Counted from the first letter of the stretch, positions 9,099 through 28,755 are shown. The stretch is 28,755 bases of DNA from a virus (IMGVR_UViG_3300043450_000154:1-28755), one strand, 5' to 3'. Notes: generated from the sequence alone by a model not told the origin. Numbers and translations are program-made.

Positions 9099-9139
9099 AT
9101 AAAAGTGAAAATATTTTTGAAGTGTTAAAATTTGCTCAT

Positions 9140-9176: not shown

Positions 9177-9187
9177 AAAACCAAAAA

Positions 9188-9207: not shown

Positions 9208-9248
9208 CTCAAAAGTACGGGCGCAAAGTGGCAATCAAAAAATAAAAG

Positions 9249-12289: not shown

Positions 12290-12291
12290 AG

Positions 12292-12870: not shown

Positions 12871-14846
12871 GGCTTTGGCTTAACTAATACTTGGAACCAA
12901 GAATGTCTACATGAAGGAATATGTGTGTTGGTATCGGGCAATGTCATCCATCCACCTCGACGCTCCCAAACTGAATACCCCATGATTTGCGAAATTTGGT
13001 TAATGTCATTGCGGGTATAATACCTACCCAGTTCAATCATTTTGATACAGAACTCACGGCTACCGTCAATCAACTTTTGTGGACCAAACTCGGGAAGCAC
13101 ATCGTAACGGTACATTACTTGAACCAACGGCTCACTTTCGGGTCGATCCGGCTTAATAAAGTCTTTGGCGTTATCCCCTAGTTCTTTCAATGCGCCACGA
13201 AGATTGATCGCTCCCTTTTCAACCAACGCACTAATGCGCTCGCTGATCTTTTCAACGGACGTGCTTAACCGACGCGAAATGTCTTCGGCTGTAATGGTTG
13301 GATCCTTCTTGATTTCTTTCAAGATATTGCTGTCAAGTTCTTCGTACTCGCTCGCAAATTCTTGCTCTTGAAGTTCGAATCCGTATCGCATGGTTCGAGC
13401 TTTCAACTCAACAAAATTCTCCTTGCTTTGGCCAAATTGCTGGAACAAATCTAACTCAACTTTGTCGTTACGCTTGAATCCGTGAAAGCTTGTTGACGTT
13501 TCTTGTGGTGGTACTTGGCTTTCCGGGGCTGGGTTAAGTCCTATCAACGAACGAACTTCGTTATCGCTCATTTTCTCGAGAACCTTGTTGGCCACTAACG
13601 GGCTCAACGCCTGGATGCTGTCGGTTGTTTTTGGTACATCTACCGTGTCATCTTTCAATCCCGCCATCTCGCGCAATTCAGCACGGCTGGCAATGGTGGT
13701 CAATGTCTGTTCAGACAATTGCTCTTTGATTGGATCGGTCGGTAAAATCTCCAACACTCCAACTCCGTTAAAATCCAAAATGTAATTGAAAACCTTTTCG
13801 ATCTTACGCACGCGGTCCTCAACGTACACCGACTTAAACAGCTCGTAAGACTCGATCAACTCCGAGCGTCCACCCAATTGCCCGGATGTACGGATGCCGA
13901 ATAGCATAGGTGATGTAACGCGGTGCGCAACAAAGATTTCGGTCTGAATGGTGTTGTTTAAAATCTCAAATTGCTTGTCCAGGTTGTTCGCTTCCAGTGC
14001 TGAAATTTCCAACCCGTTTTCTTTGGTGTCATTGAATGCAACCACAATGCGCTCGCCTTCATCACCTCGCATTTGGGTAATTAATTGACGCTTGATGTCG
14101 CGTTGTTCTTCATCGGTTGGAACACCGTTGTTGAAGCTGAATAAATAACCACCAAGGAAACCGTTTCGAAGGTTGTTCACGTGGTAGTTTGCAATGCGTG
14201 CATCCGTTTCGATGTAGGCAAGTGCGCCGAGGTATTCCGGAATAGGGTAATACTTTACAGACGGCGCATAACTGGAATAGTAAAACAACTGCTTTCCGAG
14301 CTTGTTCTCGGGATTGAAGGCCACGTACTCTCTTAATCCTTCCGGTTCACCAAACTCTTTCCACTCCTGGGCGAAATAGAACTTGTCTTGCTTTTCATTC
14401 ACGCGAAGGTTACCAAAGTTCACGTGTGCAATTTGTGAAATCTTACCTTGCAAGTTCCAAATAACCTCGAGCGCAAACCCGTTAAAGATCTCAAAGTCAA
14501 GGGTAACCTTGTAAAGAATGTCGTTCAAGTCATCGTATGGGTTGGGATCTTCCAACATACGGTTTAGTTCTGTAACAAGATCGGCGGCCAAATCTTTGGG
14601 GTCGTACGTCCATCCCTTGCCGGTGATATAGTTCACCTTTCCGTTTACAATAGCGTTATGCTTTGCGCTACGTTGGTACATCTCCAATAAATAGGAAGGA
14701 TAGTTGTTTCTTTCCCCGTAAAACACGTATGGTTTCCCATTCATTACCTTATATTCAGGTAACTTCGATTCAAAGTTCTGTTTTGTTTTGGCCATTACGT
14801 CGGTCTTTGCGACCCCATAACTACCTTTTATTCTACGTGCGCTCAT
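12867..14846 (-). CDS. Portal protein with C-terminal extension
   Basis: 659 residues. The first 400 look like a phage portal: YVFYGERNNYPSYLLEMYQR near the start, NGFALEVIWN in the clip region, and VAHRVTSPMLFGIRTSGQLGG near residues 310-330. The portal forms the dodecameric ring through which DNA enters the head. It is longer than usual. Residues 504-548 read like a winged-helix segment (LDSNILKEIKKDPTITAEDI onward) and residues 590-659 form a separate domain with RYYTRNDI, WERRGGW and CRHSW that I know from other Bacteroidota portal proteins. The gene comes after the capsid gene in transcription order, which is unusual. Confidence 0.85.
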   Translation of the reverse strand: MSARRIKGSYGVAKTDVMAKTKQNFESKLPEYKVMNGKPYVFYGERNNYPSYLLEMYQRSAKHNAIVNGKVNYITGKGWTYDPKDLAADLVTELNRMLEDPNPYDDLNDILYKVTLDFEIFNGFALEVIWNLQGKISQIAHVNFGNLRVNEKQDKFYFAQEWKEFGEPEGLREYVAFNPENKLGKQLFYYSSYAPSVKYYPIPEYLGALAYIETDARIANYHVNNLRNGFLGGYLFSFNNGVPTDEEQRDIKRQLITQMRGDEGERIVVAFNDTKENGLEISALEANNLDKQFEILNNTIQTEIFVAHRVTSPMLFGIRTSGQLGGRSELIESYELFKSVYVEDRVRKIEKVFNYILDFNGVGVLEILPTDPIKEQLSEQTLTTIASRAELREMAGLKDDTVDVPKTTDSIQALSPLVANKVLEKMSDNEVRSLIGLNPAPESQVPPQETSTSFHGFKRNDKVELDLFQQFGQSKENFVELKARTMRYGFELQEQEFASEYEELDSNILKEIKKDPTITAEDISRRLSTSVEKISERISALVEKGAINLRGALKELGDNAKDFIKPDRPESEPLVQVMYRYDVLPEFGPQKLIDGSREFCIKMIELGRYYTRNDINQISQIMGYSVWERRGGWMTLPDTNTHIPSCRHSWFQVLVKPKP

Positions 14847-15214
14847 AAATTTGGCTCAATATATTCGATCGTGTTTGCAGAAAACACGGTATCGTTTGTT
14901 TCCGATTCAATTATTTGATACAATCCACACTCCAACACTCCTAAAACTTCAGCATCTTCCGGACTGGACGCACCACTTTCGCCCTCGTAAAGCGTGTAAG
15001 TACATTGGCCTCCTGGTATATTTCCAATAGAAACATTGAATGCGTTGTAACGATCCGTTTGGAAAGATAGATCACTCGTTTTCGCGAAGGAATAAAAGAA
15101 GTCATTGTTGGTTGAAATGTGATGGATATTCAAATACAGCGTATCACCTTGGCTATAAAACTCGGTGGCAGTAAAGAACAACCGGTTAACCTCATTGGAA
15201 TTAAGTAACTGCAT
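14843..15214 (-). CDS. Hypothetical structural protein, 123 residues
   Basis: Starts MQLLNSNEVNRLFFTATEF and is strand-rich with an acidic composition and a Gly/Ser turn (YEGESGASSPEDAE). It lies between the putative tail tube gene and the portal gene, shares ATGA with the portal start, and follows a terminator-like hairpin (15250-15274). These facts fit a small virion component such as a decoration or neck protein, but I do not recognise it with certainty. Confidence 0.65.
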   Translation of the reverse strand: MQLLNSNEVNRLFFTATEFYSQGDTLYLNIHHISTNNDFFYSFAKTSDLSFQTDRYNAFNVSIGNIPGGQCTYTLYEGESGASSPEDAEVLGVLECGLYQIIESETNDTVFSANTIEYIEPNL

Positions 15215-15249
15215 AACTATTGTATTACAAAACTCAAAAAAGTAACAAC

Positions 15250-15274
15250 AAAAAAAGGGATCGTTTCCGATCCC
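15250..15274 (-). terminator. Intrinsic terminator within the structural operon
   Basis: GGGATCG (15274-15268 on the minus strand) pairs perfectly with CGATCCC (15263-15257) around a 4-base GAAA loop, followed on the minus strand by seven T (15256-15250). It lies 23 bases past the stop of the gene at 15297-15782. A tetraloop stem with a T7 tail should terminate well; the portal and fibre genes beyond need read-through or a new start. Confidence 0.88.
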
Positions 15275-15296
15275 CCAAAACTAATATGGAAAGGTA

Positions 15297-15782
15297 TTAA
15301 GGCAAAATTTCTTCCAATACAACGATTGGGCTCGTTTCGTTGGTAGAGAATGTCAATGTCAATCCGTTCAAATCTCCCATAGCTGTACCAGTTGCACCGG
15401 TGCCAGTGGTTAGATTTACTCCGTTTTCGTAACCAAGAATCCACTGAACACCATTGCGATCGGTAGCAACAACTGCCAATTTCGCTTGTGCCATAAGCTT
15501 CAACTCATTGCGAAGGGCAGCGGTCAACTTAGGCAATTGAATGGTCAATTCAGTTGTGTAGAAAGTAGTTCCAGTTTGCTCTGAAGACGTTACAGTTTCA
15601 GTGAATTGTGCCGTGTTGATTGGCAACTGATACTTGAAGAAAGTACCGGTAACGGTAGCAACTTCACCGGCTGCGGGAGCGTCGTAAGTGATGGAAGATT
15701 GATTTGCAATGTGGATGTGTTTGATACCACCCACACTGTCTTTACACCCTAAAGTGTAACCAGCGGTTAATGCGCAACTCAT
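15297..15782 (-). CDS. Putative major tail (tube) protein
   Basis: 161 residues starting MSCALTAGYTLGCKDSVGGI. The two cysteines and the GCKDSVGGIK segment are typical of a Bacteroidota phage structural protein, beta-rich with many Thr and Gly. It sits right after the major capsid gene between two strong terminators, which implies it is made in large amounts like the capsid, as a tail tube would be. The family is recognised but its identification as the tube protein is inference. A longer overlapping frame in the same region (15217-15444) is a shadow. Confidence 0.7.
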   Translation of the reverse strand: MSCALTAGYTLGCKDSVGGIKHIHIANQSSITYDAPAAGEVATVTGTFFKYQLPINTAQFTETVTSSEQTGTTFYTTELTIQLPKLTAALRNELKLMAQAKLAVVATDRNGVQWILGYENGVNLTTGTGATGTAMGDLNGLTLTFSTNETSPIVVLEEILP

Positions 15783-15806
15783 ATTTTTATTTCTTTATTG
15801 ATATAC

Positions 15807-15835
15807 AAAAAAAGGGTGGGCGATTTCACCCACCC
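15807..15835 (-). terminator. Intrinsic terminator directly after the capsid gene
   Basis: GGGTGGG (15835-15829 on the minus strand) pairs with CCCACCC (15820-15814), loop of 8 bases, followed by seven T (15813-15807). It lies 26 bases past the capsid stop. A strong stop here would leave the capsid as the most abundant message. Confidence 0.88.
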
Positions 15836-15860
15836 CTTGGTTAATTGTTCAATCTATTGA

Positions 15861-16829
15861 TTAAGCCATTACGAACTTAACGATCTGATCAGGGAATGCA
15901 ACCTGGAAACCAGCTTTGAACTCACAAACGAAACGAACGTTCATTGCTTCTTTAGCATAGAAGATTTCGAATTTCTCTTGCTCATTCAACAAGTCAGTAC
16001 CGAATACCAAGTTGGAAGTGCGCATAGCGTAGATAGAGAATGAAGTGTTACCACCGATACCATCGTTCAATCCTGGAACAGCAACCAATTTAATGTTGGA
16101 TCCTGGGATAACCATTTCACCAGCTTGCATACCATCGTAGTAAGAAAGGTTGAAATAGTTAGAAGCTACGATGTCTTGACGGAACAAACGGAATACATCC
16201 CATCCACAGAAAACAACAACATCGTCAGTACCCAAAATGTCGGTAGGAATTGCACGCTCAATCGCTTGCAATACAGTGCGACGTGAAGTAGTACCGGCAG
16301 CGTTAGCAGTGAAATTTGCTTTAGAAATTGGAGTAACACCGTTACCAGTGAAGGCATTAGTGTTCGCATCGATTACGCCGGAAGCTGCATCGATAACATC
16401 TTTCCAACCATCGATTTCAGTGCTATCTCCAACCCAAGAAATTGACTCCAATTGACGAGCAATCATAGCAACCTTTTGGTTTGCGTACGCCTCTTCAAAT
16501 GGGATAGCTTGGTACAAAGAACCTTGAGGAAGGTGGTGCTGCAACCAAGTTTGCTCCAACGCTTGAGGACACAAAGACTCATGTACTTTCAAGTGCTTAA
16601 CAGCAATGTTACGCTGGCTGAAAGTAGTAGTACCGTTATCAGCAAAAGCACACGTAACACCGTAAGCAAATGGAGCGGTGGTGTCCATGATGTTGATAGC
16701 GGAAGTACCTTTAAGTCCAACCATTTTGTTTGCCATTGAAATTGACTTTGCACCGAAAACGGCTTTGGTCATCAATGGAAGTGTGTTTTGATTAACGTAA
16801 GAAGTTAATCCAGTAAGTGAAAAACTCAT
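15861..16829 (-). CDS. Major capsid protein (HK97-fold type)
   Basis: 322 residues. Features of HK97-type capsid proteins from Bacteroidota phages: an N-terminal arm region (MSFSLTGLTSYVNQNTLPLM), the SWVGDSTEIDGW segment in the middle, FCGWDVFRLFRQDI, an extended loop (MVIPGSNIKLVAVPGL) and the C-terminal MNVRFVCEFKAGFQVAFPDQ. The gene follows the scaffold and protease genes and is followed at once by a strong terminator, consistent with high dosage. There is no sign that it is fused to a scaffold, which is encoded separately. Confidence 0.9.
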   Translation of the reverse strand: MSFSLTGLTSYVNQNTLPLMTKAVFGAKSISMANKMVGLKGTSAINIMDTTAPFAYGVTCAFADNGTTTFSQRNIAVKHLKVHESLCPQALEQTWLQHHLPQGSLYQAIPFEEAYANQKVAMIARQLESISWVGDSTEIDGWKDVIDAASGVIDANTNAFTGNGVTPISKANFTANAAGTTSRRTVLQAIERAIPTDILGTDDVVVFCGWDVFRLFRQDIVASNYFNLSYYDGMQAGEMVIPGSNIKLVAVPGLNDGIGGNTSFSIYAMRTSNLVFGTDLLNEQEKFEIFYAKEAMNVRFVCEFKAGFQVAFPDQIVKFVMA

Positions 16830-16836
16830 CTTTTTT

Positions 16837-17418
16837 TTATTTTAGTGCTTGTAAAAATTTGTCAATGTTTGCGTTCTGCTTGCTCTTTGGGTACAAGTAA
16901 GTGAACGATGCTGGCTTGGAAACCTCGGCAGTTGGAAGGGTAGAAATTTCTTCTACAACGGCAGTCATGGCTTCAGTTGCTTTTGTCATTCCTTCAAACT
17001 TCTTCATCAATTCATCTAACTTACCTTCAAGCTTCACAATGCGATCTTGCAATTCAGCGGTGATGTCAACAACTGGCATAACATCAGCCATTTCAACTTC
17101 AACCTCGATCTTTGGCTCTTCTTCCAATGGCATGATTTCAGCAATCAAACCGTCTTTAACAACGATCTTTGCAACACCAAGAATTTCGTGCTCACCATCA
17201 GGGGCGGGAGCTTCAGTACCATCTTCAGCAATTGCAACAACTGGAACACCAACGGCAATTTCTCCGTCAATCTTAACCTTAACACCGGAAGCAGTTTCGT
17301 ACTCTGCAAAGTTGTGTTCAACGGCGGGCGTTTCTCCAACTTCTACGGTAGGATCAGTAGGCAATTCTGAAGACATTAAGTAAGATTTGATCTTTAACAA
17401 TTCTGCTTTTATGTCCAT
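16837..17418 (-). CDS. Capsid scaffold / assembly protein
   Basis: 193 residues, strongly acidic. The first third is alanine and glutamate-rich. The middle (YETASGVKVKIDGEIAVGVP through HEILGVAKIVVKDGLIAEI) is a repeated strand pattern that I know from phage scaffold or capsid assembly proteins. A coiled coil follows at about 120-160, and the end is a lysine-rich helix (KSKQNANIDKFLQAL) like scaffold tails that bind capsid. It lies between the protease and capsid genes, the classical place for a scaffold. It would be removed by the protease after assembly. Confidence 0.8.
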   Translation of the reverse strand: MDIKAELLKIKSYLMSSELPTDPTVEVGETPAVEHNFAEYETASGVKVKIDGEIAVGVPVVAIAEDGTEAPAPDGEHEILGVAKIVVKDGLIAEIMPLEEEPKIEVEVEMADVMPVVDITAELQDRIVKLEGKLDELMKKFEGMTKATEAMTAVVEEISTLPTAEVSKPASFTYLYPKSKQNANIDKFLQALK

Positions 17419-17471
17419 AAATTTGACTTTATCAATAGTATTACAATAGGGGAAAAAGTGACAGAAAATAG

Positions 17472-18047
17472 TTACAACAACGAAATGATTTCATCCAATA
17501 ACGTAGTGATTTCCACGTTCTTAGAAAAGTTCTCGGCGTGTGCTACGTGTAAGAACTCACCCTCAACAGAAAATCCTTTGAACGTGCCGTCCTTCACTTG
17601 GCTCCATATATCATTATTATAAACTTTATAACTTCCAAACCACGTACCCTCGGGGCAATCCTCGAATCCCTTGGGTGCTGAAATGCCACGGCTCGAATCC
17701 TTTAAAAAGGTTTCAAACATGAACACTCCATCTACCGGGTCTTTGTGCTCCTTGTTTACGTTGTTGGAATTTTGATCGCGCATAAATTTTTCAGCGATCT
17801 TCTTCACCATTTCAGCATCGTAAGTCACGTAGTATTCCCCAAAGGAATTATCCCTTCGATAGATCAATTGATCGGGAATCATTAACGGACCGGTTACGAT
17901 TCTTTTCTCTTCATCGGCGGTGAACTTATGCGATTTGAACGCGTGAAAATTTCGCTCAATGGCTGGCGTGTTTACCAGTGCCACGAACTCAACCCCTGTT
18001 TCTTCATCCTCGGGATTGATTACTAGTTTGTAAATTGGTAGTTCCAT
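17472..18047 (-). CDS. Prohead protease, XkdF-like
   Basis: 191 residues. The pattern fits the XkdF family of phage prohead proteases: PLMIPDQLIYR, then a conserved H101 in NKEHKDPVDGVFMFE, then the CPEGTWFGSYKV segment, and S160 in FKGFSVEGEF. H101 and S160 are the likely catalytic pair. It processes scaffold and capsid proteins during head maturation. The gene begins at a TAATG overlap with the tape measure gene stop (18047), so head maturation is transcribed directly after a tail gene, which is not the usual order. Confidence 0.85.
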   Translation of the reverse strand: MELPIYKLVINPEDEETGVEFVALVNTPAIERNFHAFKSHKFTADEEKRIVTGPLMIPDQLIYRRDNSFGEYYVTYDAEMVKKIAEKFMRDQNSNNVNKEHKDPVDGVFMFETFLKDSSRGISAPKGFEDCPEGTWFGSYKVYNNDIWSQVKDGTFKGFSVEGEFLHVAHAENFSKNVEITTLLDEIISLL

Positions 18048-20038
18048 TATTTTCCTAATGTTGCGGTTTGTGAAAGTCTTTTTGATCGTTTCTGCTTATC
18101 CGAAATATCGGTTTCAAGCACGTATGTTTTTACCGATTGTTGAAGGTTACCCTGGGCATCAAGTTGCAGTTGGGTGCTTCCAATTGTTGGAGTGCTTCCA
18201 GCCATGGAAGACGGTGCAGCTGAAAAGTTAGGCATTGAACCAACTGGACCACCACCGCCACCACCGGGCACTTGAACTTTATTGATTGATTTAACAGTAT
18301 TAAAACCATTAATACCGATTGTTGCTGCACTGGCAATTTTTACCGCCGTTCCAAATGGTTCGGGATACGGATTCTTTGCTCTTAACACTTCCGAAATACC
18401 AAGGTAGGTATTAATCAAAGCTTGGGCGGTTGCAAGTGCTTTGCCCGCTTTTGTTTCCTTACCTAACGCATCCGATAAACTACCAAACAAATCAGCAACG
18501 GCCTTGGTCAACGCCATCTTTCCTTGAAGTTGTGCGCTGTCTAATTGTTTCGTCGCTTCATTATATTGCTTTTGAGTAATCAATCCAGTTTTATACGCAT
18601 TGTCTAAAATGGTTTTTATTTCATCGTAGCTTTGAGAATAGTCTTGACGTTGGATTTCAAGTTGCGCACGTTGTTGTTCTAATTGCTTATCGCTAATTTC
18701 CTTTTTCTTTAAAGCAATTTCATCAGCTAAGGCAGTGGTATCGTTACCAAATTTCTTTTCAATTTCAAGTTGCTTTTCAAGTTTCTGAATTTCTAATGTT
18801 TCAGTTTCTTGGTCATTAAGTTTAGCAACTGCAATTAAATGGGCGTAATAGGCATCGTTTGCCTTGATGCTATCATCAAATTCTTTTTTTCTACGTTCTT
18901 CTGAATCCTTGGCATCTTCTTCTTGTTTCTTCTTTAAATCAGCATCTTCTTTATCCTTTTTTTCCTTAGCTTTTTTAGCGTCTTCATCCCTTTTCTCCTT
19001 AGCCTTTTTATTGGCATCGTCAACACTTTTTTGGTAGCTCGCATCCAGGACCAACCGCTTGTTATTGGCATCGGCAATTTCAGTGGTCAATTCTTTAATG
19101 CGCTTCTTTTCATCGTCGGTAGCGTTACCGGCTTTAACCTTTGTTTGAAGTGCTGTTTGTTCGGTTTTTAAGTTCTTAATCCGTAGATCAGCAAGTTGCT
19201 TTTCAAGGTTGTAGATTTCCTTCGCGCTCTTTCCTTCTGCTTTGGCTAGTTCAATTCTACGCTCGATCGTTTTTTCTGCTTCCTTCATGGCATCCTTCGT
19301 TTTATTGAAGGCTTCAACCACTTTATCAGCGTTCTCTTTGGTCTTTGCCGTTGCTGCATTATCAATCAACCCGAAAGAAATGGTGCTCAAAAAGTCACGT
19401 ACCTTTGCAATGATCCCATCAAACGGTTTCAAAAGGTTCATCACAACCTTCTTTACATCGTCAAAGTTTGCAATAAGCAAACCCAATCCCGCCACCAAAG
19501 CCATAACTCCCGTTGCCATTAACGCCTTCGAAAATCCTTTTGTGGCTTTCGTGCCTACTTCCGTTGCAGCTGCATTTGCCTTTTGCGCCTTACTTAAAAA
19601 TGCTAACGAAAACGCACTATCTTTTTGAAGGATGTTTGTAATAGCAGTCACACCTTGAAGCAATGCCATTGCTCCCTGTGTTTTCTTGATCGCTTCTTCA
19701 ACCGCTTTGTTCTCTGAACCAAACAAAGACATCGCACCCTGTGCAGCTGCGAAACCACCGGCAATTCCTTGCGCTGCTTGACTGAACGCATCTAACCGGA
19801 AAGTATCGGAAGACAAAGCTTTAATCGCTGCCTTGGTATCACCTATCTGATCCTTAACCTCCCCCGCTCTTTGTTGCAAAACTTTAAAGTCAGCCGAACC
19901 TGCTTTGCCAGCATTGGACATATCATTTAAGGCTTTTTCTATTTGCCTTAATTCGTCCTTTAATGATTTAAAATCTTTGTTTGCGTCGTCGGTTTCCGTC
20001 TTTACGCGTAACAAAATATCCTTAGTAGTATCTGCCAT
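18047..20038 (-). CDS. Tape measure protein
   Basis: 663 residues. Residues 1-75 form a coiled coil rich in Asp and Lys; there is a hydrophobic segment at 172-191; a long charged coil runs from about 230 to 490 with Lys/Glu repeats; and after a glycine run at 592-597 comes the YVLETDIS...KRSKRL terminus common to Bacteroidota tape measures. It sets tail length. At about 0.15 nm per residue this predicts a tail of roughly 100 nm, as in siphoviruses. It follows the distal tail genes and directly precedes the protease gene. The glycine-rich C-terminal tail may be cut off during assembly. Confidence 0.9.
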   Translation of the reverse strand: MADTTKDILLRVKTETDDANKDFKSLKDELRQIEKALNDMSNAGKAGSADFKVLQQRAGEVKDQIGDTKAAIKALSSDTFRLDAFSQAAQGIAGGFAAAQGAMSLFGSENKAVEEAIKKTQGAMALLQGVTAITNILQKDSAFSLAFLSKAQKANAAATEVGTKATKGFSKALMATGVMALVAGLGLLIANFDDVKKVVMNLLKPFDGIIAKVRDFLSTISFGLIDNAATAKTKENADKVVEAFNKTKDAMKEAEKTIERRIELAKAEGKSAKEIYNLEKQLADLRIKNLKTEQTALQTKVKAGNATDDEKKRIKELTTEIADANNKRLVLDASYQKSVDDANKKAKEKRDEDAKKAKEKKDKEDADLKKKQEEDAKDSEERRKKEFDDSIKANDAYYAHLIAVAKLNDQETETLEIQKLEKQLEIEKKFGNDTTALADEIALKKKEISDKQLEQQRAQLEIQRQDYSQSYDEIKTILDNAYKTGLITQKQYNEATKQLDSAQLQGKMALTKAVADLFGSLSDALGKETKAGKALATAQALINTYLGISEVLRAKNPYPEPFGTAVKIASAATIGINGFNTVKSINKVQVPGGGGGGPVGSMPNFSAAPSSMAGSTPTIGSTQLQLDAQGNLQQSVKTYVLETDISDKQKRSKRLSQTATLGK

Positions 20039-22239
20039 TATTCTGTAATTAACTGGGGTTTAGGTTCGTCTGAAATAAATGCTCCGGTGCCACCCGTTAA
20101 TTGGAAAACGGTTGGAGTGAATGGTGCCAAATCCAATACTTTCAAAAGTTCGATTGAAGTTGATTCGTCGCTGTTTGCATCGTAATCGTTTACCGACAAA
20201 AGGTAAAACAAAGTGCCGTTAATATAAATCGGTTTGCGGAAGTCAAGATTCAACACGTCAACTGCCGAAAGTTGTACAAATAACTTGACTTTCTTTGCGT
20301 CTTTGTTAGTGTATAGGTTGACGTAATCCAACCAAAAACGATTGAATAGGTTGTTGTTGGTGTACCTATAAATCGCTCCGCTTGTTTCATCGGATTGATA
20401 GTACAACTCACGTGGAATGCCAAAGCAAAGATCGTAGGTTGGGTTGTACGGATTGTCTAAATTGCCCGCGTACGGATAACTAGTGTATTCAGTACCCTCG
20501 AAAACAAATTCCGTATCGCTTGGAAATTCAATGTACTCATGGTAAAGAATACGAAGGTTTGGGGTAACAGGCTTCACGTTCAATTCAACATCGCCACCGC
20601 TCGCAGTTCCTTTGTTATCCATGTCGTAATAACGTGCGTAAATGCGTGGGCTCGGAGAAAATCCAACCATTACGCTATTGCCAAATCCAACATCCTCGGA
20701 TTGCTCACCATTGCTGAACTCATTTGAACTAATGTAGGTACGTGAACCGTAACTTGATTGATACGCACTTTGGTAACGCTTCTCAAAGTAACCGCCCGCA
20801 TCCTTGTAACTGAACTTGTAAGTTTTTGGGTTCATGTATCCACATGGGACTACTTCGTAACCTTTCTCAACATCCCAACGTGAAGTCCAATCGAGGTAAG
20901 TTGAAGTATCGTAAAAGTCGGAAAACGGTTCGATGTATAGTTTCTTCGGATCGTACTTATCAGGCATGATAAACAAGTTGAACATACGAACCAAGTACAT
21001 AAGGAAATCGGATTGCTTAACCTTGGGTACAATGGTTTCATTCATGTTCCAGTCATCCCCAGGTTGCATTTTTGGTGTGCCTTCAATTTGATTAAGCCAA
21101 TAAGATTCATTATTTATTCGGGTTACATCGGTAACATTTTGGGTAATTGAATAAACTACATCGTATTGATCACCTGCATTTGCAGTATCTTGAAGGAAAA
21201 AGCTTTGTGATTTTGTAGTATTTGCAGGCGTGTTAAATCCAAAAACAAGGTCAAAATTTGAACCAATTAAAACACCATTTTTTCTAATTCTACTTCTAAC
21301 TAATACTTGACCAAGTGGCAATGTTCCACTTACGCAAGTTGCATTTACATTTACTTGAAAATTGTAAGTTCTATCAGATGGAGCGGTAAATTTGTAAGTA
21401 ATTGGATTATATGAACCACCATTAAAATAAGGAGCGGGAGTATCTGTACCAAATTGATAAACCGTATTTGCAATAGTTCCCGTATATGTTAAATCAGTAT
21501 TTTGACCAATATAAAACAAGTTTGTTTGCGCTTGTTCTTGGGTAATGTAAGGCACACCACTAACGCCATACGGTACTATCAACTGCTTAAACCATTGCGA
21601 GGTAAGGAAGTTACTCACATAAGTAAATCCCGCACCGCCTATGATCTTGTCAACGTACTTCTTAACGGAAATCGCGGGGTAAAAATCACCCGTGGTAAAC
21701 ACATCAGCGTACGGACTTGGTGCCTGTGTACGTGTGAAACTCGCTTGACCGTAGTCGATAGCGGGGTAATAGTAATCGTTGCCCGTACTGCCTACCGAAT
21801 TAGTCCACGCATCCACAATATTACTTCCATCCCATTCGTGGTTAAGTTCGCTGAAATCTAAGTCAGTCAATTCGCTATCTCCTAACTGCTTAAATAAGTT
21901 GACGTTTTCCCCGTACAAACCGACTTCATACGTCTTAAATTGACCGTCACTCTTAACCGCCAATAATTGCGCAATGCCATTGAACACTTCAACACCGTTC
22001 TGCAACACGTAAGAGTTCACCCTTACGCTAGGGTCAAACCCAATTACCCACTGATCAAATCGGTAAATGGAACCAAACACATTATCGTTGTGCGGAGTTC
22101 CCGGCACTTCAATGGTTCTGCTAACCGTTCCTTTGCGCTCTACGGGGTTTTCTATGTCCGTAATGGAATAGGTTAAACGAATATCAATATCATCGCTTAA
22201 ATCCAATCTTTTGCCGTCAATGTAAAGTTCTGTTATCAT
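20038..22239 (-). CDS. Large tail protein, 733 residues (distal tail/baseplate type)
   Basis: Starts MITELYIDGKRLDLSDDIDI, a strand-rich opening like the N-terminal domain of Bacteroidota tail proteins that sit at the tail tip. The rest is beta-rich and aromatic (many Tyr, Asn and Thr), which fits a distal tail or baseplate hub protein with carbohydrate-binding-like domains. I see no catalytic motif. It lies between the 441-residue protein and the tape measure gene, with ATGA (22236-22239) and TAATG (20038) overlaps. Function is by position and fold guess. Confidence 0.72.
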   Translation of the reverse strand: MITELYIDGKRLDLSDDIDIRLTYSITDIENPVERKGTVSRTIEVPGTPHNDNVFGSIYRFDQWVIGFDPSVRVNSYVLQNGVEVFNGIAQLLAVKSDGQFKTYEVGLYGENVNLFKQLGDSELTDLDFSELNHEWDGSNIVDAWTNSVGSTGNDYYYPAIDYGQASFTRTQAPSPYADVFTTGDFYPAISVKKYVDKIIGGAGFTYVSNFLTSQWFKQLIVPYGVSGVPYITQEQAQTNLFYIGQNTDLTYTGTIANTVYQFGTDTPAPYFNGGSYNPITYKFTAPSDRTYNFQVNVNATCVSGTLPLGQVLVRSRIRKNGVLIGSNFDLVFGFNTPANTTKSQSFFLQDTANAGDQYDVVYSITQNVTDVTRINNESYWLNQIEGTPKMQPGDDWNMNETIVPKVKQSDFLMYLVRMFNLFIMPDKYDPKKLYIEPFSDFYDTSTYLDWTSRWDVEKGYEVVPCGYMNPKTYKFSYKDAGGYFEKRYQSAYQSSYGSRTYISSNEFSNGEQSEDVGFGNSVMVGFSPSPRIYARYYDMDNKGTASGGDVELNVKPVTPNLRILYHEYIEFPSDTEFVFEGTEYTSYPYAGNLDNPYNPTYDLCFGIPRELYYQSDETSGAIYRYTNNNLFNRFWLDYVNLYTNKDAKKVKLFVQLSAVDVLNLDFRKPIYINGTLFYLLSVNDYDANSDESTSIELLKVLDLAPFTPTVFQLTGGTGAFISDEPKPQLITE

Positions 22240-23561
22240 AACGGCATCGATTCGTCAAAGGTGAATTTGTAGGTAATGGTGAGCGTGTGAAGTTGGTCGA
22301 AGTCACGTTTCCAAACGTTGTAGCTTGTATCGGTTACCAAAATGGGAACTAAGTATTCCAAAACTCCATCTCCTGTTTCAAATGCTTTGCGTAACCAAAG
22401 ACGTGGTGAGCGCACCATTTCAGCTAACCATTCAAATTCTGCATCGGTTAACCAATCAGAAGAAACGGTGAACTCTTTATTGTAATCTACTTGTGCGTTG
22501 TACTTGGAAAAGTTAATGTAGTTTCCATAAACACCAGGATCGGTAAATGTATCCGTCAAATACGGACGGCTCGCTTCAACTCTTTGAATGCTTTGCCTTT
22601 CTCGGTTTGGCTTGGTGAACACGTAACTATCAACCCCACCTAATTGGTTCTCAAAATGCACCTCGGTAAAGTCGTATCGTGGGCACTCATCGGTTAACCG
22701 TACAACGTATTCAATAGTTGCTTGGTTAATTCCTTCATCTTGAAATCCAGTAACAGTATAGTAACCCGTGCCGAGGATATTCGGCGCAACAGGAAAATCA
22801 ACATCGCCACTTTGAGAATCACTTGTTAAACTTGAACTTAAATTGCGCACATCCAAAGGCATGAATGGAACGGCAATCATGTTGTACTCGTTTTGCTCGC
22901 TCGATGCGTGTGACGTTTGATTGATCGTTGGTAGGTAATACTCACGAATCAACGCATTCTCGGAATCGTAATATTGATAGCGTATGTAATCAATGTTTGG
23001 GTCAACTTCTTTACTACATAAAAAATAAAGATTTCCGCTTTGATTGTACGTTACCGAAGCAACTGCCTTGGCTGATTGTGGTCGGGTGGTCAATGGTAAT
23101 CGACTACTAACTGCATCGCTATCTAACCAATAATTAGTTTTAAAGTTTGGAAATTGCACAAAGTCAAAAACAGTCCAAGCCCCATTGTAAATGATAGCCG
23201 TTTCCGCGTCGGTTGGAGCAGAACTTCCACCCGTGTACTCTTCGTCAAATTCAACGTCGAACTCAATGTATTGAGAAGGGCATCCAAAACTTTGAGGCTC
23301 TGAAAATCCCGTGTTAATCATGTTAGGTATTACTTCAAAATATCCTCGCACAATTTCCTGAAAATTGAATCTTCCATAGTTGCTATTGCTAGCACTTGGA
23401 ACCGTCTTTAACTTAGCTACCAAGTTTCCATTTATAGAAACATTTGCCACGTATCGGAAGTTCGGTTCTGTCTTGTTATCACTATCAACAAGATACACCA
23501 ACGGATTTCCCGCGGGTGAATACCTTGGTTCAGTTACTTGGGTTAAAATCGTTATTGCCAT
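22236..23561 (-). CDS. Tail protein, 441 residues
   Basis: Begins MAITILTQVTEPRYSPAGNP and continues in long strand-rich repeats (LVYLVDSDN, YVANVSINGNLVAKLK), with many Tyr, Asn and acidic residues and no transmembrane segment. This resembles tail proteins in Bacteroidota siphoviruses found directly before the distal tail gene. It overlaps its neighbours at TAATG (23561) and ATGA (22236). Exact place in the virion is not known; a role in the tail tip is inferred from order. Confidence 0.7.
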   Translation of the reverse strand: MAITILTQVTEPRYSPAGNPLVYLVDSDNKTEPNFRYVANVSINGNLVAKLKTVPSASNSNYGRFNFQEIVRGYFEVIPNMINTGFSEPQSFGCPSQYIEFDVEFDEEYTGGSSAPTDAETAIIYNGAWTVFDFVQFPNFKTNYWLDSDAVSSRLPLTTRPQSAKAVASVTYNQSGNLYFLCSKEVDPNIDYIRYQYYDSENALIREYYLPTINQTSHASSEQNEYNMIAVPFMPLDVRNLSSSLTSDSQSGDVDFPVAPNILGTGYYTVTGFQDEGINQATIEYVVRLTDECPRYDFTEVHFENQLGGVDSYVFTKPNRERQSIQRVEASRPYLTDTFTDPGVYGNYINFSKYNAQVDYNKEFTVSSDWLTDAEFEWLAEMVRSPRLWLRKAFETGDGVLEYLVPILVTDTSYNVWKRDFDQLHTLTITYKFTFDESMPL

Positions 23562-24115
23562 TATCTTGGTAGTGTTACTTCAATGCTTGTTTGTGCGATG
23601 TAATCGGCCACTTTAATTGCGAGCCTAGTAATTTCTTCATCCGTAACGAATGGAGAAACGAACGGGTTTTTCCTTACCCCGTACTTGTAAACCGAGTGCT
23701 GAATTTCACGCGCCTTTTCATCTATGCTTTGTCCTTTTCTTGGGCTTATCCCTTTCGCTGCCATCCACTTTTTGAACGGCTCACGGGGCGGGAATTTGTC
23801 CTTGAACTGGAAGGGAGAATCCGGTGCCTTGCGCGAACCGAACCGACCCTTCACCCCGTACTCTACAAACTTCCAATATCCAGGTGCCTCGATCTCGATG
23901 GCGTAATCTTTGCCGTACCTTTTTACCGGTAACGGAATGATCCCTTGGGCAAGTACATAGGTGGCATCGCTCCCGTTCTTGGATAAGTTTTGCCTAAACG
24001 CGTCAATGGCAGTGTTTGCCCAGTCGGTTAATATCTTATCAACCCCCTCAAATTCAGTGCTAATTTGTTCGGGATCTAATCCGATACTATCAAGCTGAAT
24101 AAACTTTGATGCCAT
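23561..24115 (-). CDS. Tail completion / neck protein (gp10-like)
   Basis: 184 residues. The segment IEIEAPGYWKFVEYGVKGRF followed by PFQFKDKFPP and the KKWMAAKGIS helix matches the layout of small tail-completion proteins of the HK97 gp10 type in Bacteroidota phages. These sit at the head-tail junction or tail top. It is separated from the chaperone genes by a 27-base gap with the motif TTTTGTAATTC in front of its ATG. The assignment is moderately sure; the lack of a fold search leaves room for doubt. Confidence 0.7.
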   Translation of the reverse strand: MASKFIQLDSIGLDPEQISTEFEGVDKILTDWANTAIDAFRQNLSKNGSDATYVLAQGIIPLPVKRYGKDYAIEIEAPGYWKFVEYGVKGRFGSRKAPDSPFQFKDKFPPREPFKKWMAAKGISPRKGQSIDEKAREIQHSVYKYGVRKNPFVSPFVTDEEITRLAIKVADYIAQTSIEVTLPR

Positions 24116-24142
24116 AACAATAGAATTACAAAATCGAAAATG

Positions 24143-24412
24143 TTACCTTAATCTAGATTTTGCTATTTGCTTGTTGACTTCTACCCTTTCGTGCTCCATC
24201 TTATCTTGCCAATAATTCACGTAGATAAAAAACTCAATCACTTTGAGGTCAAAAATATCTTTCCATTTGAGCACATCACCACCGGCTAACGTGTCAACCA
24301 AAATCAACCACTTGTACTTTTCTGCAAATCCAGTTCCGGTGTCAAGTCCTGTTTCGTCTGTTGGATTAGTTGATTTAAAAATCTTGGGGAATCGCTTAGA
24401 AACAGCATCCAA
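24143..24412 (-). CDS. Tail assembly chaperone GT extension (reached by -1 frameshift)
   Basis: This frame overlaps the 3' end of the chaperone G gene by 109 bases in the -1 frame and has no ATG; the first possible start is a TTG. A run of nine T (24427-24419, minus strand) lies in both frames at the entrance, and the -1 frame is open from there. The likely product is a fusion of about 257 residues, G for about 164 residues and then this extension (GQLDAVSKRFPKIF onward). It would be made as a minor product and bind the tape measure protein. The independent frame is listed for completeness. Confidence 0.72.
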   Translation of the reverse strand: MDAVSKRFPKIFKSTNPTDETGLDTGTGFAEKYKWLILVDTLAGGDVLKWKDIFDLKVIEFFIYVNYWQDKMEHERVEVNKQIAKSRLR

Positions 24413-24915
24413 CTGCCCAAAAAAAAAGCGGACAATCCCAATGCTTCAACGGCTAACATCTTTTCCTTCACATCCTTTGCCCGCTCAAAATGCTTATTGC
24501 CATCGTATTTTTTTGCAATCCAAAACGGCGTTACCTCACGCATCAACGATGCAACGATTAAGTGAATGTTTTGATTGATCTTTTCTTGGTCACTGGTCCA
24601 CTCACTGATCTCCACGAATTGCGCCGTGCACACGTCCTCAAAAAATCGATTGATCCAATAACGCTTTCCATTCACCTTCACAAAATTCTTGAATGGCTTG
24701 TAAGGTTCTTCATTCAGCTGGTTCACGATTGACTCGTAACGCTTGCGCAAATCGGGCAGTGAGTACTGATCTACCTTGGAGTAACCGCCGTCAACGATCG
24801 CAGTTACCGAGCGCATCAAATCCCATCCTTCCAGGTGTTGCACCTCTTGGATCATTTGCCATTGGCCAACCGTTAAGGTGCGCCAAACATTGTTGTTCTT
24901 CTTATTTAATCCCAT
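24304..24915 (-). CDS. Tail assembly chaperone G
   Basis: 203 residues starting MGLNKKNNNVWRTLTVGQWQ, helix-rich, Trp-rich, with a hydrophobic end (LGLSAFFLGSWMLFL). Its position upstream of the tail tip and tape measure genes, its length and a slippery run near its end match the G protein of the lambda-type G/GT pair. Chaperone proteins coat the tape measure during tail assembly. The ATG lies inside the terminase gene end (14-base overlap). I rest the call on frames and position, since these proteins are poorly conserved. Confidence 0.72.
   Translation of the reverse strand: MGLNKKNNNVWRTLTVGQWQMIQEVQHLEGWDLMRSVTAIVDGGYSKVDQYSLPDLRKRYESIVNQLNEEPYKPFKNFVKVNGKRYWINRFFEDVCTAQFVEISEWTSDQEKINQNIHLIVASLMREVTPFWIAKKYDGNKHFERAKDVKEKMLAVEALGLSAFFLGSWMLFLSDSPRFLNQLIQQTKQDLTPELDLQKSTSG
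24419..24428 (-). other. Slippery sequence (T9) for programmed -1 frameshift
   Basis: On the minus strand the 0 frame reads GCT TTT TTT TTG GGC. The nine T give a T-TTT-TTT heptamer on which both tRNAs can re-pair one base back, giving the -1 frame that continues to 24143. No strong stem is obvious just downstream. Confidence 0.72.
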
Positions 24916-26059
24916 ATTTTCCTACGTTTTTTTCTGCTAGTTTATTCAATGCAAAATATCTCAATGCGTCCATGCCGTGATTGAAGGAATCAATCGGTAC
25001 GTTGGTAGCGTTGCCGTCCTTTTCTTTCCATTTGTAGGCGTTCAATTCTTTGATTAGATTGGCACTTCTACTCGTTACGTTAAAGCGAAACCGTTTCAAT
25101 ATATCGATGCCGTTTAGTATGCTGTCTTTTCCTTTATTGGCACCCTCAATTCGCCATCCCATGCGCCGGATTTCTTCAATACTTTTCGGTTCTGCTGAAT
25201 CGGCCACGATCGGCATATTGTTATTGATACCGGCACGGGCAAATACCTGGGCAATGTCCTGATTTGTTAGCCCTTTGTGGTACATAAATTCGTCAATGAT
25301 CAATTCTCCGTTGTACCGGTACACCATAACGCACGCGGTGGGATCGTTCGTGAACCCAAAATCCAATCCCGCACCAAGCAGTTGCGCCTCGCTCGGTATC
25401 GTTCCAATCGTTCCCCAGTTGCGATAAATCAAACCCTCAATCTTGCCGGTCATCCCTCGGGCGTACACCTTCCAAAGTTCTTCATCGTCACTGCGTAACG
25501 CTTCAATCTTTTTGCGAATGATCTCGGGAAGGAATGGGTTGTGTCGGTGGTCGGAAATGATTAACTCAACACCGTCTTTGCCGATCAACTTTTCATGGAC
25601 CCAAAAGCGAGCGTTAGGGTTGTAGTCAATGAACACTTGCTTCTTGGTTCGCATGGCGAGCTCGGAATAGATTTCAAAGCTTATCCCGTTCGCCTCATTC
25701 AGAAAGAAGTAGTCACGCTTTCCGCTCTTTGCATCCTGGGAATCTTGGTAGCTTTTAAACTCCATGATAGAGCCGTTGTGAAACGTAAAGATACGATCGC
25801 TCGCGTTGTAGCTTTTTATCCAGCTTTGAATGTCGGTTGAGCTCGCTACAATTGCTTGCATATCTCGGAGAGCACCGCTTTTAAGGTTCGGAACGTCTTG
25901 GCCTACAACACTGATCACTTGGTCCGGTTGCTCGATGGCTTTCAAGCAAAGCACCTGGAGGATGGAGTAAGTCTTGCCGGAACTTGTACCACCTTGATTG
26001 ACTATAACCTCGGCAATTGAATTGTAATTGCGCTCAAAAATTACCGACGTTTGAAACAT
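24902..26059 (-). CDS. terL: Terminase large subunit (PBSX/Terminase_3 type)
   Basis: From the ATG at 26059 (TGATG with the small subunit stop; a TTG just before it also opens the frame) the protein has 385 residues. The ATPase has Walker A GGTSSGKT at 23-30 and Walker B DYFFLNEAN near 116-124. The nuclease domain has D233 in GLDFGFTNDP, D287 in ADSAEP, and D364 in FNHGMDALRY, the three acidic residues that bind metal in RNase-H-like packaging nucleases. It packages DNA into the head through the portal. Length and motifs are complete. Confidence 0.95.
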   Translation of the reverse strand: MFQTSVIFERNYNSIAEVIVNQGGTSSGKTYSILQVLCLKAIEQPDQVISVVGQDVPNLKSGALRDMQAIVASSTDIQSWIKSYNASDRIFTFHNGSIMEFKSYQDSQDAKSGKRDYFFLNEANGISFEIYSELAMRTKKQVFIDYNPNARFWVHEKLIGKDGVELIISDHRHNPFLPEIIRKKIEALRSDDEELWKVYARGMTGKIEGLIYRNWGTIGTIPSEAQLLGAGLDFGFTNDPTACVMVYRYNGELIIDEFMYHKGLTNQDIAQVFARAGINNNMPIVADSAEPKSIEEIRRMGWRIEGANKGKDSILNGIDILKRFRFNVTSRSANLIKELNAYKWKEKDGNATNVPIDSFNHGMDALRYFALNKLAEKNVGKYGIK

Positions 26060-26508
26060 CAATCTAAAATTATTGCATCTTCACTATCGGCAAGGTCAAC
26101 ACTCCCTTTGATTATTCCAACATTGATTTCCGCTTGTGGCATCGATACCGTAGTGTCAACCGTTTCCTTTGGCTTTCCGTACACGCGATCAAATAGAACT
26201 TCCATAAGGTGGATTGAACCGCGACTCATGTCACGCTCCATCTTCTTGCTGATCATCTTCAACCAGAATGGCACATCCTCACGTTCGCCCAGGTCCTTGA
26301 CTTGCTTTTCAGTCATGCAAAGCATTGCCATGATCATATCGTTGGCTTGACTGGATGAAAGGGTAATGTCAAACTCTTCCATAAACACCTCTTTGATCAC
26401 GTTCTTCAACGCCCGTGGCCTTCCATTCCGATTGATGTTTTCGGGGTGGCTTTTAAATCCGTGCTTCTTCGCGGTTTCCTTGTCCTTAAAATTCTCCCCG
26501 CGTGGCAT
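26059..26508 (-). CDS. terS: Terminase small subunit
   Basis: From the ATG at 26508 (TAATG with the upstream stop) the protein has 149 residues and starts MPRGENFKDKETAKKHGFKS. The N-terminus with NINRNGRPRALKNVIKEVF resembles the DUF5681-type opening of phage small terminases. Basic residues early fit DNA binding, the middle helical part would form the oligomer, and the end (DLADSEDAIILD) is acidic, where the large subunit may dock. It recognises the packaging start site. The longer frame to 26553 is less likely. Confidence 0.8.
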   Translation of the reverse strand: MPRGENFKDKETAKKHGFKSHPENINRNGRPRALKNVIKEVFMEEFDITLSSSQANDMIMAMLCMTEKQVKDLGEREDVPFWLKMISKKMERDMSRGSIHLMEVLFDRVYGKPKETVDTTVSMPQAEINVGIIKGSVDLADSEDAIILD

Positions 26509-26702
26509 TAGATTTCGATTTTGTTTACAATATCCTTCAGCTTTTGCATACACATAAGCTTCAATTCGTAATCGGTAGCACCACCAACGTTCACGTGATC
26601 GGCAGTTTCTGCTATATCCATCAACAAGTTGGCAATGGTAGCGTAAAGCTCCACCGCGCCAATGGCTTCATCGATAACATTCTTTTCTTTTGTATCGTTC
26701 AT
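26508..26702 (-). CDS. Hypothetical protein, 64 residues
   Basis: Small acidic, helical protein starting MNDTKEKNVIDEAIGAVELY and ending LQKLKDIVNKIEI-like (KLKDIVNKIEI). It sits between the small terminase gene and the 149-residue gene, with ATGA (26699) and TAATG (26508) overlaps. Charge and length are those of small helical proteins that associate with a partner, but no family is recognised. Confidence 0.6.
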   Translation of the reverse strand: MNDTKEKNVIDEAIGAVELYATIANLLMDIAETADHVNVGGATDYELKLMCMQKLKDIVNKIEI

Positions 26703-27148
26703 TTCTCGAGCTCCTTCAACTTTGCTTCACTCCATCGAAGGCCAGCAAGCCCACCCCAAAGAAGGTAGGAAATGTATCCGCAATCCTGGGGCGTTGCTTG
26801 TTCGTAATCTTCTTTCGCACGACTCAAATAGGAGTACATCCGTTTGATCGTGTCAACCGTCACGCGCTCACCATTTGCGAGCTGTTGAGCTCGAACCTTA
26901 CCGACTTGCGTAGCACATTTGTTACCGTTCTTTTCGTTCAGTTCAATGCCGCGCTTAGCGTTGTTACGGACCGCTTGCGGGTAGTCATTGTAGGATTGGA
27001 ATAGTTCGTACTTCTTGCGACCTAACGCGTTGCACACGGCCAACCTTTGAACGCTGTCGGTGTATTCGTTCTTCATGGTATCATCGCTCATGCAACGATC
27101 CATGAAATCACTTTTTGATTCTTCTGACTTTCTTTTTGGGAGTGGCAT
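26699..27148 (-). CDS. Conserved phage protein, prohead-protease-associated domains
   Basis: 149 residues. The start (MPLPKRKSEESKSDFMDRCM) and the segment AVRNNAKRGIELNEKNGNKC through ISYLLWGGLAG...WSEAKLKELE are two small domains I know from phages, commonly fused to or encoded next to prohead protease or structural genes. Here they form a separate protein upstream of the terminase genes, far from the XkdF protease at 17472. Function unknown. The ATG is well inside the gene upstream (41-base overlap). Confidence 0.7.
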   Translation of the reverse strand: MPLPKRKSEESKSDFMDRCMSDDTMKNEYTDSVQRLAVCNALGRKKYELFQSYNDYPQAVRNNAKRGIELNEKNGNKCATQVGKVRAQQLANGERVTVDTIKRMYSYLSRAKEDYEQATPQDCGYISYLLWGGLAGLRWSEAKLKELEK

Positions 27149-27479
27149 CGGTTTCTTCTTTAGTGTTCACAATTTCTTCCGGTTCACTTTCCATGAACAC
27201 AGCTTTTGCAATGGCTTCGCTATTCTCGCGGAATCTACGATCTCTTTCTTTTTCGTACATTGAGAACACACGTGTAAACGCACTTACATTGCACGTAACA
27301 CAACCGCTCACCCATCTACGGCCCATGACTTCGCTCCATACTGAACCAACGATTGCCATTTGTTCAGGTGCCAATTTAAATACACGAACGCGCTGATATT
27401 CCAACCATTTCGGATATAACGGTTCTAATCTGTTGAGTTGATCTTCTGTCATTCTGTTTATCATTTTTCTTCCATTCAT
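27108..27479 (-). CDS. Hypothetical protein, 123 residues
   Basis: From the ATG at 27479, which shares ATGA with the membrane-protein gene, the protein starts MNGRKMINRMTEDQLNRLEP. The middle contains WVSGCVTCNVSAFTRVFSMY with a Cys-x-x-Cys; the end is strongly basic (KKKVRRIKK). A frame to 27632 exists but the N-terminal residues there are improbable and overlap the membrane gene. I do not recognise a family; it could bind DNA by its basic tail. Confidence 0.65.
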   Translation of the reverse strand: MNGRKMINRMTEDQLNRLEPLYPKWLEYQRVRVFKLAPEQMAIVGSVWSEVMGRRWVSGCVTCNVSAFTRVFSMYEKERDRRFRENSEAIAKAVFMESEPEEIVNTKEETDATPKKKVRRIKK

Positions 27480-27730
27480 CGGTTTCTGTATAAAATAACA
27501 TCTACAAAAATGTAGGCGAGTATTGAGGATAAACCACCAACACCGACCACATCTATAATGTCGATCCGGTGAGTAAGTAACCCAAGGCAGCCATGGGCAA
27601 TACCGATCCACCAAGATAGGCAAATGTAACAATTGAATGGCTTGAATCCGATTGCCTCGCCAATGTCGGTGAGCTTAGTCATCACCACTCCAATACAAGC
27701 GGAATACACCGCCAAAAGTAATACTATCAT
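27476..27730 (-). CDS. Small membrane protein with CxxC motif
   Basis: 84 residues with three hydrophobic stretches (about 1-18, 38-52 and 58-80) and the motif FNCYICLSWWIG (C34, C37) near the membrane edge. The motif recalls the FxCxxCLSxWxG of DUF1360 and of small membrane proteins common in Bacteroidota phages. The role is unknown; the pair of cysteines could hold a disulphide or metal. It is coupled by ATGA overlaps to the sigma-like gene (27727-27730) and to the gene downstream (27476-27479). Confidence 0.7.
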   Translation of the reverse strand: MIVLLLAVYSACIGVVMTKLTDIGEAIGFKPFNCYICLSWWIGIAHGCLGLLTHRIDIIDVVGVGGLSSILAYIFVDVILYRNR

Positions 27731-28209
27731 TTTAATTTATTTTTTACGTTTCTAATTGTCGCTCGAACGGAATTGTACGGAATCTTGGTGTCGCGTGAAA
27801 TCTTTTTCATCGGCACCCCTTCCAGGTGTATTTGAAAAATCACACCTTCGTACCATTCGAGCTTTGTCATTTTCTGCTTTATACTTTCAATCCTTTCCGA
27901 GTCTTGCCGGTCTTGCTCTTGGTTGTACTCTTCATCGATAAACTCCACTTGATCTATTCCAACCGTTTCTTGCGATGGGTTGAACTTCTTGTTGAATGGT
28001 GATCTCGGTAGATAGTAGGTGTTGTAGATTACTTGAATCACAAACAAGTACCACGATGAATTGAGCAACTGGTTCTTTTGCTCTTCCGGTTTCTCGCAAA
28101 GGTACAAAACAACCTCGTGATAAAGGTCATGGCCAAGATCCCCCGCCAATTCAAGGCAGTACTTCTTGATGCCACGGTGGCTAGTCACGAGGTCGATTAG
28201 TGGGTGCAT
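27727..28209 (-). CDS. Sigma-70-like factor (ECF type), phage-encoded
   Basis: 160 residues. The first third has the DLYHEVVLYLCE helix expected of sigma region 2, then a variable loop, then residues 117-160 form a region-4-like helix-turn-helix: LEWYEGVIFQIHLEGVPMKK followed by ISRDTKIPYNSVRATIRNV. Such small proteins, two sigma domains with little else, can act as alternative sigma factors, and a phage version could redirect polymerase to late promoters. The gene is upstream of the packaging and structural genes. I cannot see region 2.4 clearly, so the function is a strong guess rather than proven. Its ATG directly follows the SSB-like gene's TAA. Confidence 0.7.
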   Translation of the reverse strand: MHPLIDLVTSHRGIKKYCLELAGDLGHDLYHEVVLYLCEKPEEQKNQLLNSSWYLFVIQVIYNTYYLPRSPFNKKFNPSQETVGIDQVEFIDEEYNQEQDRQDSERIESIKQKMTKLEWYEGVIFQIHLEGVPMKKISRDTKIPYNSVRATIRNVKNKLK

Positions 28210-28500
28210 TTAGAACGGCAAATCGTTATCGGTGCTCCATCCATGTTGAGCCAATTTATCAACGGCGGGTTTGAGTGCCGGATTGATTTCGCTCGGTGCT
28301 TGCACCGGTGCGTCTTTCGCCTTCCATTTCACCCAGTGCGTTGCTTTGCTCTTTTGGTCAACCTCTTTGCGTTGCCCTACAAATACCTCAATATCCCCGT
28401 ATTGGTTGGTGGGTAAATCTAACAAATCTTGTTTTTTAAGTTGAACCTTAACCCCGTACTGGTTAGACCAACCTTTGCCTACATACTTTTCGTTTTCCAT
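28210..28500 (-). CDS. SSB-like protein with acidic C-terminal tip
   Basis: From the ATG at 28500 the protein has 96 residues and starts MENEKYVGKGWSNQYG. The sequence resembles small Bacteroidota phage proteins that look like single-stranded DNA-binding proteins (KYVGKG opening, QLKKQDLLDLP, then an aromatic strand around HWVKWK). It ends in DNDLPF, the acidic tip by which bacterial SSB binds partner proteins. A standard OB fold cannot be confirmed by eye, and the protein is shorter than SSB. It may protect single-stranded DNA or bind replication proteins through the tip. Confidence 0.6.
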   Translation of the reverse strand: MENEKYVGKGWSNQYGVKVQLKKQDLLDLPTNQYGDIEVFVGQRKEVDQKSKATHWVKWKAKDAPVQAPSEINPALKPAVDKLAQHGWSTDNDLPF

Positions 28501-28755
28501 ATTTTTAAATGTTTGAATAAATAGCTTGAAAATCAGGTGCAATGTAATTACGCTCTTTCTCCTTCACTTCACGAATGTAATTCAATCGCATTAAATAACC
28601 TCCTATTGGTTTACCATATGCACCCCGTTCGATGTGCCACCCGAAAGCACCGTCGGTGAACTCGTCCTTGTAAGTCGATGTTCTAATGTCGTGTTGGATG
28701 CGTTGCTTCACTTCGTAAGGTGCTGTTGTACTAATCGTTTCTTTGATGTTGATGT
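28498..28755. repeat. Copy B of the diverged phosphoesterase repeat
   Basis: Counterpart of 161-418, aligned without gaps at offset 28337, about 28 mismatches by hand count. The window ends inside it, so its true length is unknown. Confidence 0.85.
28505..28755 (-). CDS. Metallophosphoesterase, second copy (C-terminal part only)
   Basis: The frame is open to the window edge and encodes the last 83 or so residues of a second phosphoesterase, differing from the C-terminus of the copy at 168-1043 at about four residues (for example NFIREV becomes NYIREV). The metal-binding motifs lie beyond the edge and cannot be checked. Unlike the first copy, it is followed by the SSB-like gene 4 bases after its stop. 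The strong protein conservation despite many silent changes says both copies are under selection. Confidence 0.85.
   Translation of the reverse strand, partial: INIKETISTTAPYEVKQRIQHDIRTSTYKDEFTDGAFGWHIERGAYGKPIGGYLMRLNYIREVKEKERNYIAPDFQAIYSNI

Follow-up and report, generated by a model that had tools for sequence, protein, structure and literature searches.

Tail genes ahead of head genes in a probable Bacteroidota phage of about 28 kb: an apparently inherited layout with candidate late promoters and conserved hairpins

In the textbook order of lambda- and HK97-like siphoviruses, the portal, protease and capsid genes directly follow terL, the gene of the terminase large subunit, and lie ahead of the gene of the tape measure protein (TMP). 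The Nonlabens/Persicivirga phages P12024S and P12024L of the genus Inhavirus are arranged differently, in the cyclic order terL-chaperone-gp10-g22-g20-TMP-protease-capsid-tube-portal-DUF6712-endolysin-ERF, and the same order of blocks, measured from terL, is found in Cellulophaga phage phi46:1, Bacteroides phages BT23 and BU2-1 and Phocaeicola phage BV674P5. Public phage records with a portal of the BV674P5 type number 147, the gene order having been checked in the named ones only. We found no paper remarking on this gene order in the openly readable literature, which is no proof of absence. The layout itself is already known, and the late region described here is real yet ordinary in its group.

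The DNA that we analysed, called the window throughout, is the entire record IMGVR_UViG_3300043450_000154 of 28,755 bases, with all of its substantial genes on the minus strand. Its ends overlap imperfectly in the same orientation (151-418 against about 28489-28755; 268 bases, 89% identity) and related contigs are similar in size (28,664, 28,564 and 28,002 bases), so that the window probably represents an almost entire genome of about 28.3 kb, closed across strain variation, whose circularity went unrecognised in the record. As tape measure and tube genes are present, this ~28 kb tailed phage is most likely a siphovirus; no sheath gene was recognised in the window. The Bacteroidota-type promoter consensus occurs at 9 sites against 1.6 expected, a scan of bacterial genomes with the portal returned two loci only, both relatives in Mucilaginibacter and Flavobacteriales genome bins, and because of these findings and of the cultured relatives we infer a host among the Bacteroidota. 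No close named relative was found by DNA: megablast of window positions 9000-28755 against phage records gave no match, and by nucleotide similarity to P12024S/L the window does not belong to Inhavirus. Its TerL is 55% identical to that of the human-gut contig MT836763. For the comparisons below, we searched 168 sequences with profiles of the window's genes, and related loci or contigs carry L numbers.

The order of transcription is terS, terL, a frameshifted tail chaperone, a gp10-like gene, two large tail proteins, TMP, protease, scaffold, capsid, tail tube, portal and DUF6712. The terminase small subunit gene (26059-26553) is named by its position and phrog_15125, with homologues directly ahead of terL in 30 loci, and terL itself (24902-26062) matches PF17288 (1.6e-16), PF04466 (4.8e-14) and PHROG terL. 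The G part of the tail assembly chaperone (24304-24915) is named by position, by a conserved frameshift and by homology, using its own profile, to P12024S gp38, a member of phrog_32199. A -1 slippery heptamer, T TTT TTG, lies within a nine-T run at 24418-24424 (minus strand), the sequence CTTTTTTTTTGGGCAG being identical in the window, L011, L016, L017 and L019, and it leads into a -1 frame extension, the GT part (24143-24428), whose frame and protein sequence are conserved in the same five contigs. This conservation of both site and downstream frame is that of a G/GT chaperone with a putative -1 frameshift. The usual hallmark of lying directly upstream of the tape measure gene is absent, as the gp10-like gene, 22236-23561 and 20038-22239 intervene. 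The first of these, encoding an HK97 gp10-like tail completion protein (23561-24115), matches phrog_29822 (2e-5), and its P12024S counterpart also matches phrog_5, tail completion/Neck1 (4e-4). The next two encode large tail or virion proteins of no established role, g22 (22236-23561), conserved in position in about 50 loci, and g20 (20038-22239), which matches gp20 of phi46:1 (3.7e-41), a protein annotated as a virion protein by MS/MS. The initial annotation called both of them tail tip proteins, a name that we could not establish; PDB profile searches gave nothing useful for either, with no PDB profile match for 22236-23561, and virion membership is supported for 20038-22239 only, through the phi46:1 homologue. 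The tail block closes with TMP (18047-20038; phrog_1538 1.1e-9, phrog_9483 1e-7, phrog_339 1.7e-6).

The head block opens with a head maturation protease of the XkdF type (17472-18047; PF14550 2e-15, phrog_34096), followed by a scaffold candidate (16837-17418) named for its position between protease and capsid, as Pfam and PHROG profile searches gave no convincing match for it. In profile searches the major capsid protein (15861-16829) matched only a family of unknown function, and weakly; a structure model built from 28 sequences (pLDDT 74) matches HK97-fold capsids with E-values down to 2.5e-12, and the product is thus predicted to have the HK97 fold. The tail tube protein of 161 residues (15297-15782; phrog_19091 2e-20) likewise has a predicted tube fold, in a model of medium confidence (pLDDT 68) whose top matches are almost without exception tube-fold proteins, the best being the tube of phage 7-7-1 (E 4.6e-4), with others in Milano, the DSR2-tail tube and monocin. 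The tube gene is thus placed within the head block, with capsid on one side and portal on the other. Cultured relatives have two or three tail-tube-like paralogues (L002 2149-2694 and 5953-6552; L004 14771-16360; L169 9241-10896; L170 15321-16912) and the window has one. A small conserved protein with homologues in 77 loci is encoded at 14843-15214 and overlaps by 4 bases the gene of the portal protein (12867-14846; phrog_33693 5e-33, phrog_11226 9e-33), which contains an internal winged-helix HTH segment at about residues 503-547 (PF13412 4e-8). The C-terminal domain of the portal has the conserved residues R.FC ... C.H.W, found in P12024S too, and the gene falls outside the range, 15861-26508, that the initial annotation had covered. 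The DUF6712 protein (12292-12870; PF20459 4e-21), whose phi46:1 homologue gp08 carries an MS/MS-based annotation as a virion protein, is likely the head-tail connector. Beyond it lie a conserved protein found at the same place in about 60 loci (11416-12231) and a putative tail fibre with a weak match to phrog_25620 (9914-11419), which stands behind the 11416-12231 gene in 37 loci.

These assignments, made with Pfam and PHROG profiles and with structure prediction for the capsid and tube, confirm what was first noticed in this DNA, namely that tail genes precede head genes and that the portal lies behind the capsid. The contrast with the usual siphovirus order, in which portal and head genes come right after terminase, also holds, and portal-first relatives exist: Flavobacterium phage FPSV-S2, whose TerL is 39% identical to that of the window, has by annotation the textbook order terL, head genes including capsid, tail chaperone and TMP. 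The window departs from that order and agrees with P12024S in both blocks, terL being followed by chaperone, completion protein, large tail proteins and TMP, and the head block running protease, capsid, tube, portal and DUF6712, with P12024S homologues by PHROG. Homologous proteins occupy each place of the cyclic order in P12024S and P12024L, and the P12024S portal is 28% identical to that of the window; unlike in the window, opposite-strand accessory genes separate TMP from protease in P12024S, there are two tube-like genes, and capsid and tube genes adjoin without a gap, a terminator-like hairpin standing behind the portal gene in its place. BT23, BU2-1 and phages of the BV674P5 type share with the window terL, the tail genes and a TMP gene directly ahead of the head block, in which the portal comes last, after capsid and tube-like genes, but they are larger (about 35-38 kb), with two or three tube-like paralogues and a shorter portal, and in BT23 and BU2-1 a DNA polymerase gene is annotated. 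In phi46:1, several of whose virion proteins are MS/MS-annotated, portal and DUF6712 close the head block and terL heads the tail block as in the window, whereas the portal block is separated from terL by lysis genes and TMP from protease by early genes; on its strand the head block comes ahead of terL and tail. P12024S and phi46:1 therefore agree with the window in cyclic order only, whereas its relatives have the direct TMP-protease junction and so, according to their annotation, do the gut phages.

The reading implied by the initial annotation, in which the layout is a peculiarity of this genome with a whole module swapped, does not stand: the order is the rule among the relatives, in Inhavirus and in cultured Bacteroides, Phocaeicola and Cellulophaga phages, and its occurrence in a known genus, here with Nonlabens P12024S, is the very finding that the annotation had named as speaking against it. 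Its description of the portal as moved last is right in that the portal does come last, and is better stated for the whole head block protease-scaffold-capsid-tube-portal-neck, common to all these phages. For a large set of Bacteroidota phages the rule terminase-portal-capsid-tail, used in annotation and checking, thus fails, and in such phages the place to look for portal and capsid genes is downstream of TMP. Based on our data we propose that the window has an inherited tail-first Bacteroidota layout with late transcription in three units, a joint reading to which we give a probability of about 0.75.

The regulatory pattern that enters this proposal is in our opinion a more interesting by-product than the gene order. 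Three promoter-like elements occur on the minus strand of the window, P1 (24120-24146; GTNACNTTTT-N5-TTGTAATNCWAT) ahead of the gp10-like gene, P2 (17435-17462) before the scaffold gene and P3 (15219-15246) before the operon of 14843-15214 and portal. The general form of this bipartite motif is GTNACNTTTT-N5..8-box B, and it was found before gp10 in 17 loci, before the scaffold gene in 39 and before 14843-15214 in 44, whereas 18 other gene types have no copy ahead of them. Box B reads TTGTAATNCWAT in the window's clade and CCCATTNNATAANT in the sister clade, and in none of the 36 loci with two or more sites are the two types mixed. Such a concerted change at separate sites is as expected for promoters read by one co-evolving factor. 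The motif was found in these two closely related clades only and is not evident in more distant ones such as L065 and L095. As box B ends 4 bases ahead of the start codons of gp10 and 14843-15214 in the window, those transcripts would be nearly leaderless, and it is conceivable that the motif instead works on RNA or in translation. No sigma factor was established in the window, where 27727-28209 gives a non-significant region-4 match only. Standard Bacteroidota promoters (TTTG-N-TAnnTTTG) were rejected as late promoters, the convincing ones preceding early or lysis-side genes, and one such promoter at 15276-15306 was set aside because it is not kept in L007 or L017. The good promoters of this type (2560-2590, 7581-7611 and 9068-9098, minus strand, at early or lysis-side genes) have a similar downstream stretch, TGT.ATACCAAA-like. 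The bipartite motif supplies candidate late promoters that can be tested, in a group of phages of which most are uncultured.

Two terminator-like hairpins were located by terminator scan on the minus strand, T1 behind the capsid gene (15811-15838) and T2 behind the tail tube gene (15255-15276). In total, sigma-70 and terminator scans of the window gave no excess over shuffles, and only these two strong hairpins stand out. Of the gaps that could be measured among the relatives, 66 of 67 behind the capsid gene hold a GC-rich hairpin (0.4 in shuffles), as do 60 of 66 behind the tube gene (0.8 in shuffles), other junction types having 0 or 1 each, and a T run ends the hairpin in 47 loci behind capsid and in 56 behind tube. 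Counted by loop-anchored comparison, there are 23 distinct stems behind the capsid gene and 24 behind the tube gene, with pairs changed on both sides, the structure being kept and the sequence not; RNAalifold, applied to the tube-portal gap as aligned by MAFFT, returned no pairs, as the hairpins are misaligned there. A hairpin behind the capsid gene is also present in phi46:1, BU2-1 and BV674P5 and in the portal-first FPSV-S2 and L117, and is therefore a wider habit and no cause of the gene order. In T7 as well a terminator behind the capsid gene is known.

Taken together, the motif may be a late promoter recognised by a factor that the phage specifies or modifies, and the hairpins may end or stabilise transcripts. 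One late unit would then comprise the tail block and protease, a second scaffold-capsid-(T1)-tube-(T2), bringing high-copy virion proteins together, and a third portal, connector and fibre, in which the low-copy portal would have its own start, with a hairpin between it and the high-copy genes. The portal is present in 12 subunits per virion. Heads and tails are built from free subunits, so that gene order need not match assembly order. Dosage control, and any causal link between it and the gene order, is what we would infer from this arrangement. Worded in full, the idea is that copy number, and not the organelle to which a product belongs, governs the arrangement of the late region, in which three late promoters, identical, phage-specific and evolving in concert, together with two hairpin terminators would place scaffold, capsid and tube in one high-output unit and isolate the 12-copy portal in another, and that this dosage logic keeps the portal last across Bacteroidota siphoviruses while terL is freely exchanged; we hold it tentatively, at somewhat less than even odds. 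That the order is inherited but purely historical, hairpins and motifs being local regulation that any order of genes would show alike and dosage being irrelevant to the last place of the portal, has close to an even chance. The capsid-gene hairpins of portal-first phages speak for it, as does the general knowledge that phages can assemble without a fixed order of their genes, whereas in this clade P3 and T2 set the portal operon apart from the capsid and tube genes, which fits a dosage separation without showing that dosage caused the order.

The inherited part of our proposal draws on the survey, in which strict collinearity with the window holds for 126 of the 127 loci that carry at least three markers; the public records L001, L002 and L004 and the permuted record L165 are outside this count and were examined separately. 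TMP, capsid and portal occur together in 53 survey loci, 21 run from terL/chaperone/gp10 through portal, and the order is kept down to about 30% portal identity. A recent rearrangement that took head genes and portal downstream in this phage alone, as the initial annotation implied, is highly improbable given this collinearity and the same order in distant cultured phages, even though some phages with related TerL are portal-first (among them, judged by their PHROG matches to portal or capsid, L100, L101, L103, L112, L117, L126 and L127) and the TerL tree mixes both layouts. In that tree of 76 rows the portal-first rows, few in number (8), are scattered, five layout changes are needed, at least four of them forced by well-supported branches, and the long branches of P12024S and phi46:1 are uncertainly placed; the human-gut L001, which is tail-first, pairs with the portal-first L100. 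This scatter suggests that terL moves between layouts, and exchange explains the mixing better than rearrangement does; terL appears to have been exchanged while head and tail blocks keep their own layout.

That pieces of different phages were artificially joined near 18047 or 24915 has almost no probability left, for while the window ends, matching at only 89%, show that strains are mixed there, cultured genomes have the same order, TMP and protease overlap by one base (TAATG) at 18047, and independent contigs span both junctions, that at 18047 in L007, L010, L011, L013-L017, L019 and other IMG/VR contigs and the terL/chaperone junction near 24915 in L011 and L016 and, among more distant relatives, L025, L058 and L061. 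With these contigs and the collinear loci, the misassembly that the initial annotation had allowed for is therefore not found, and judged from the sequences compared the gene order is inherited, being neither a local accident nor an assembly error. In L074 1-14538, the sole non-collinear locus, the tail block lies on the other strand and diverges from the head block, and TMP and g20 have changed places.
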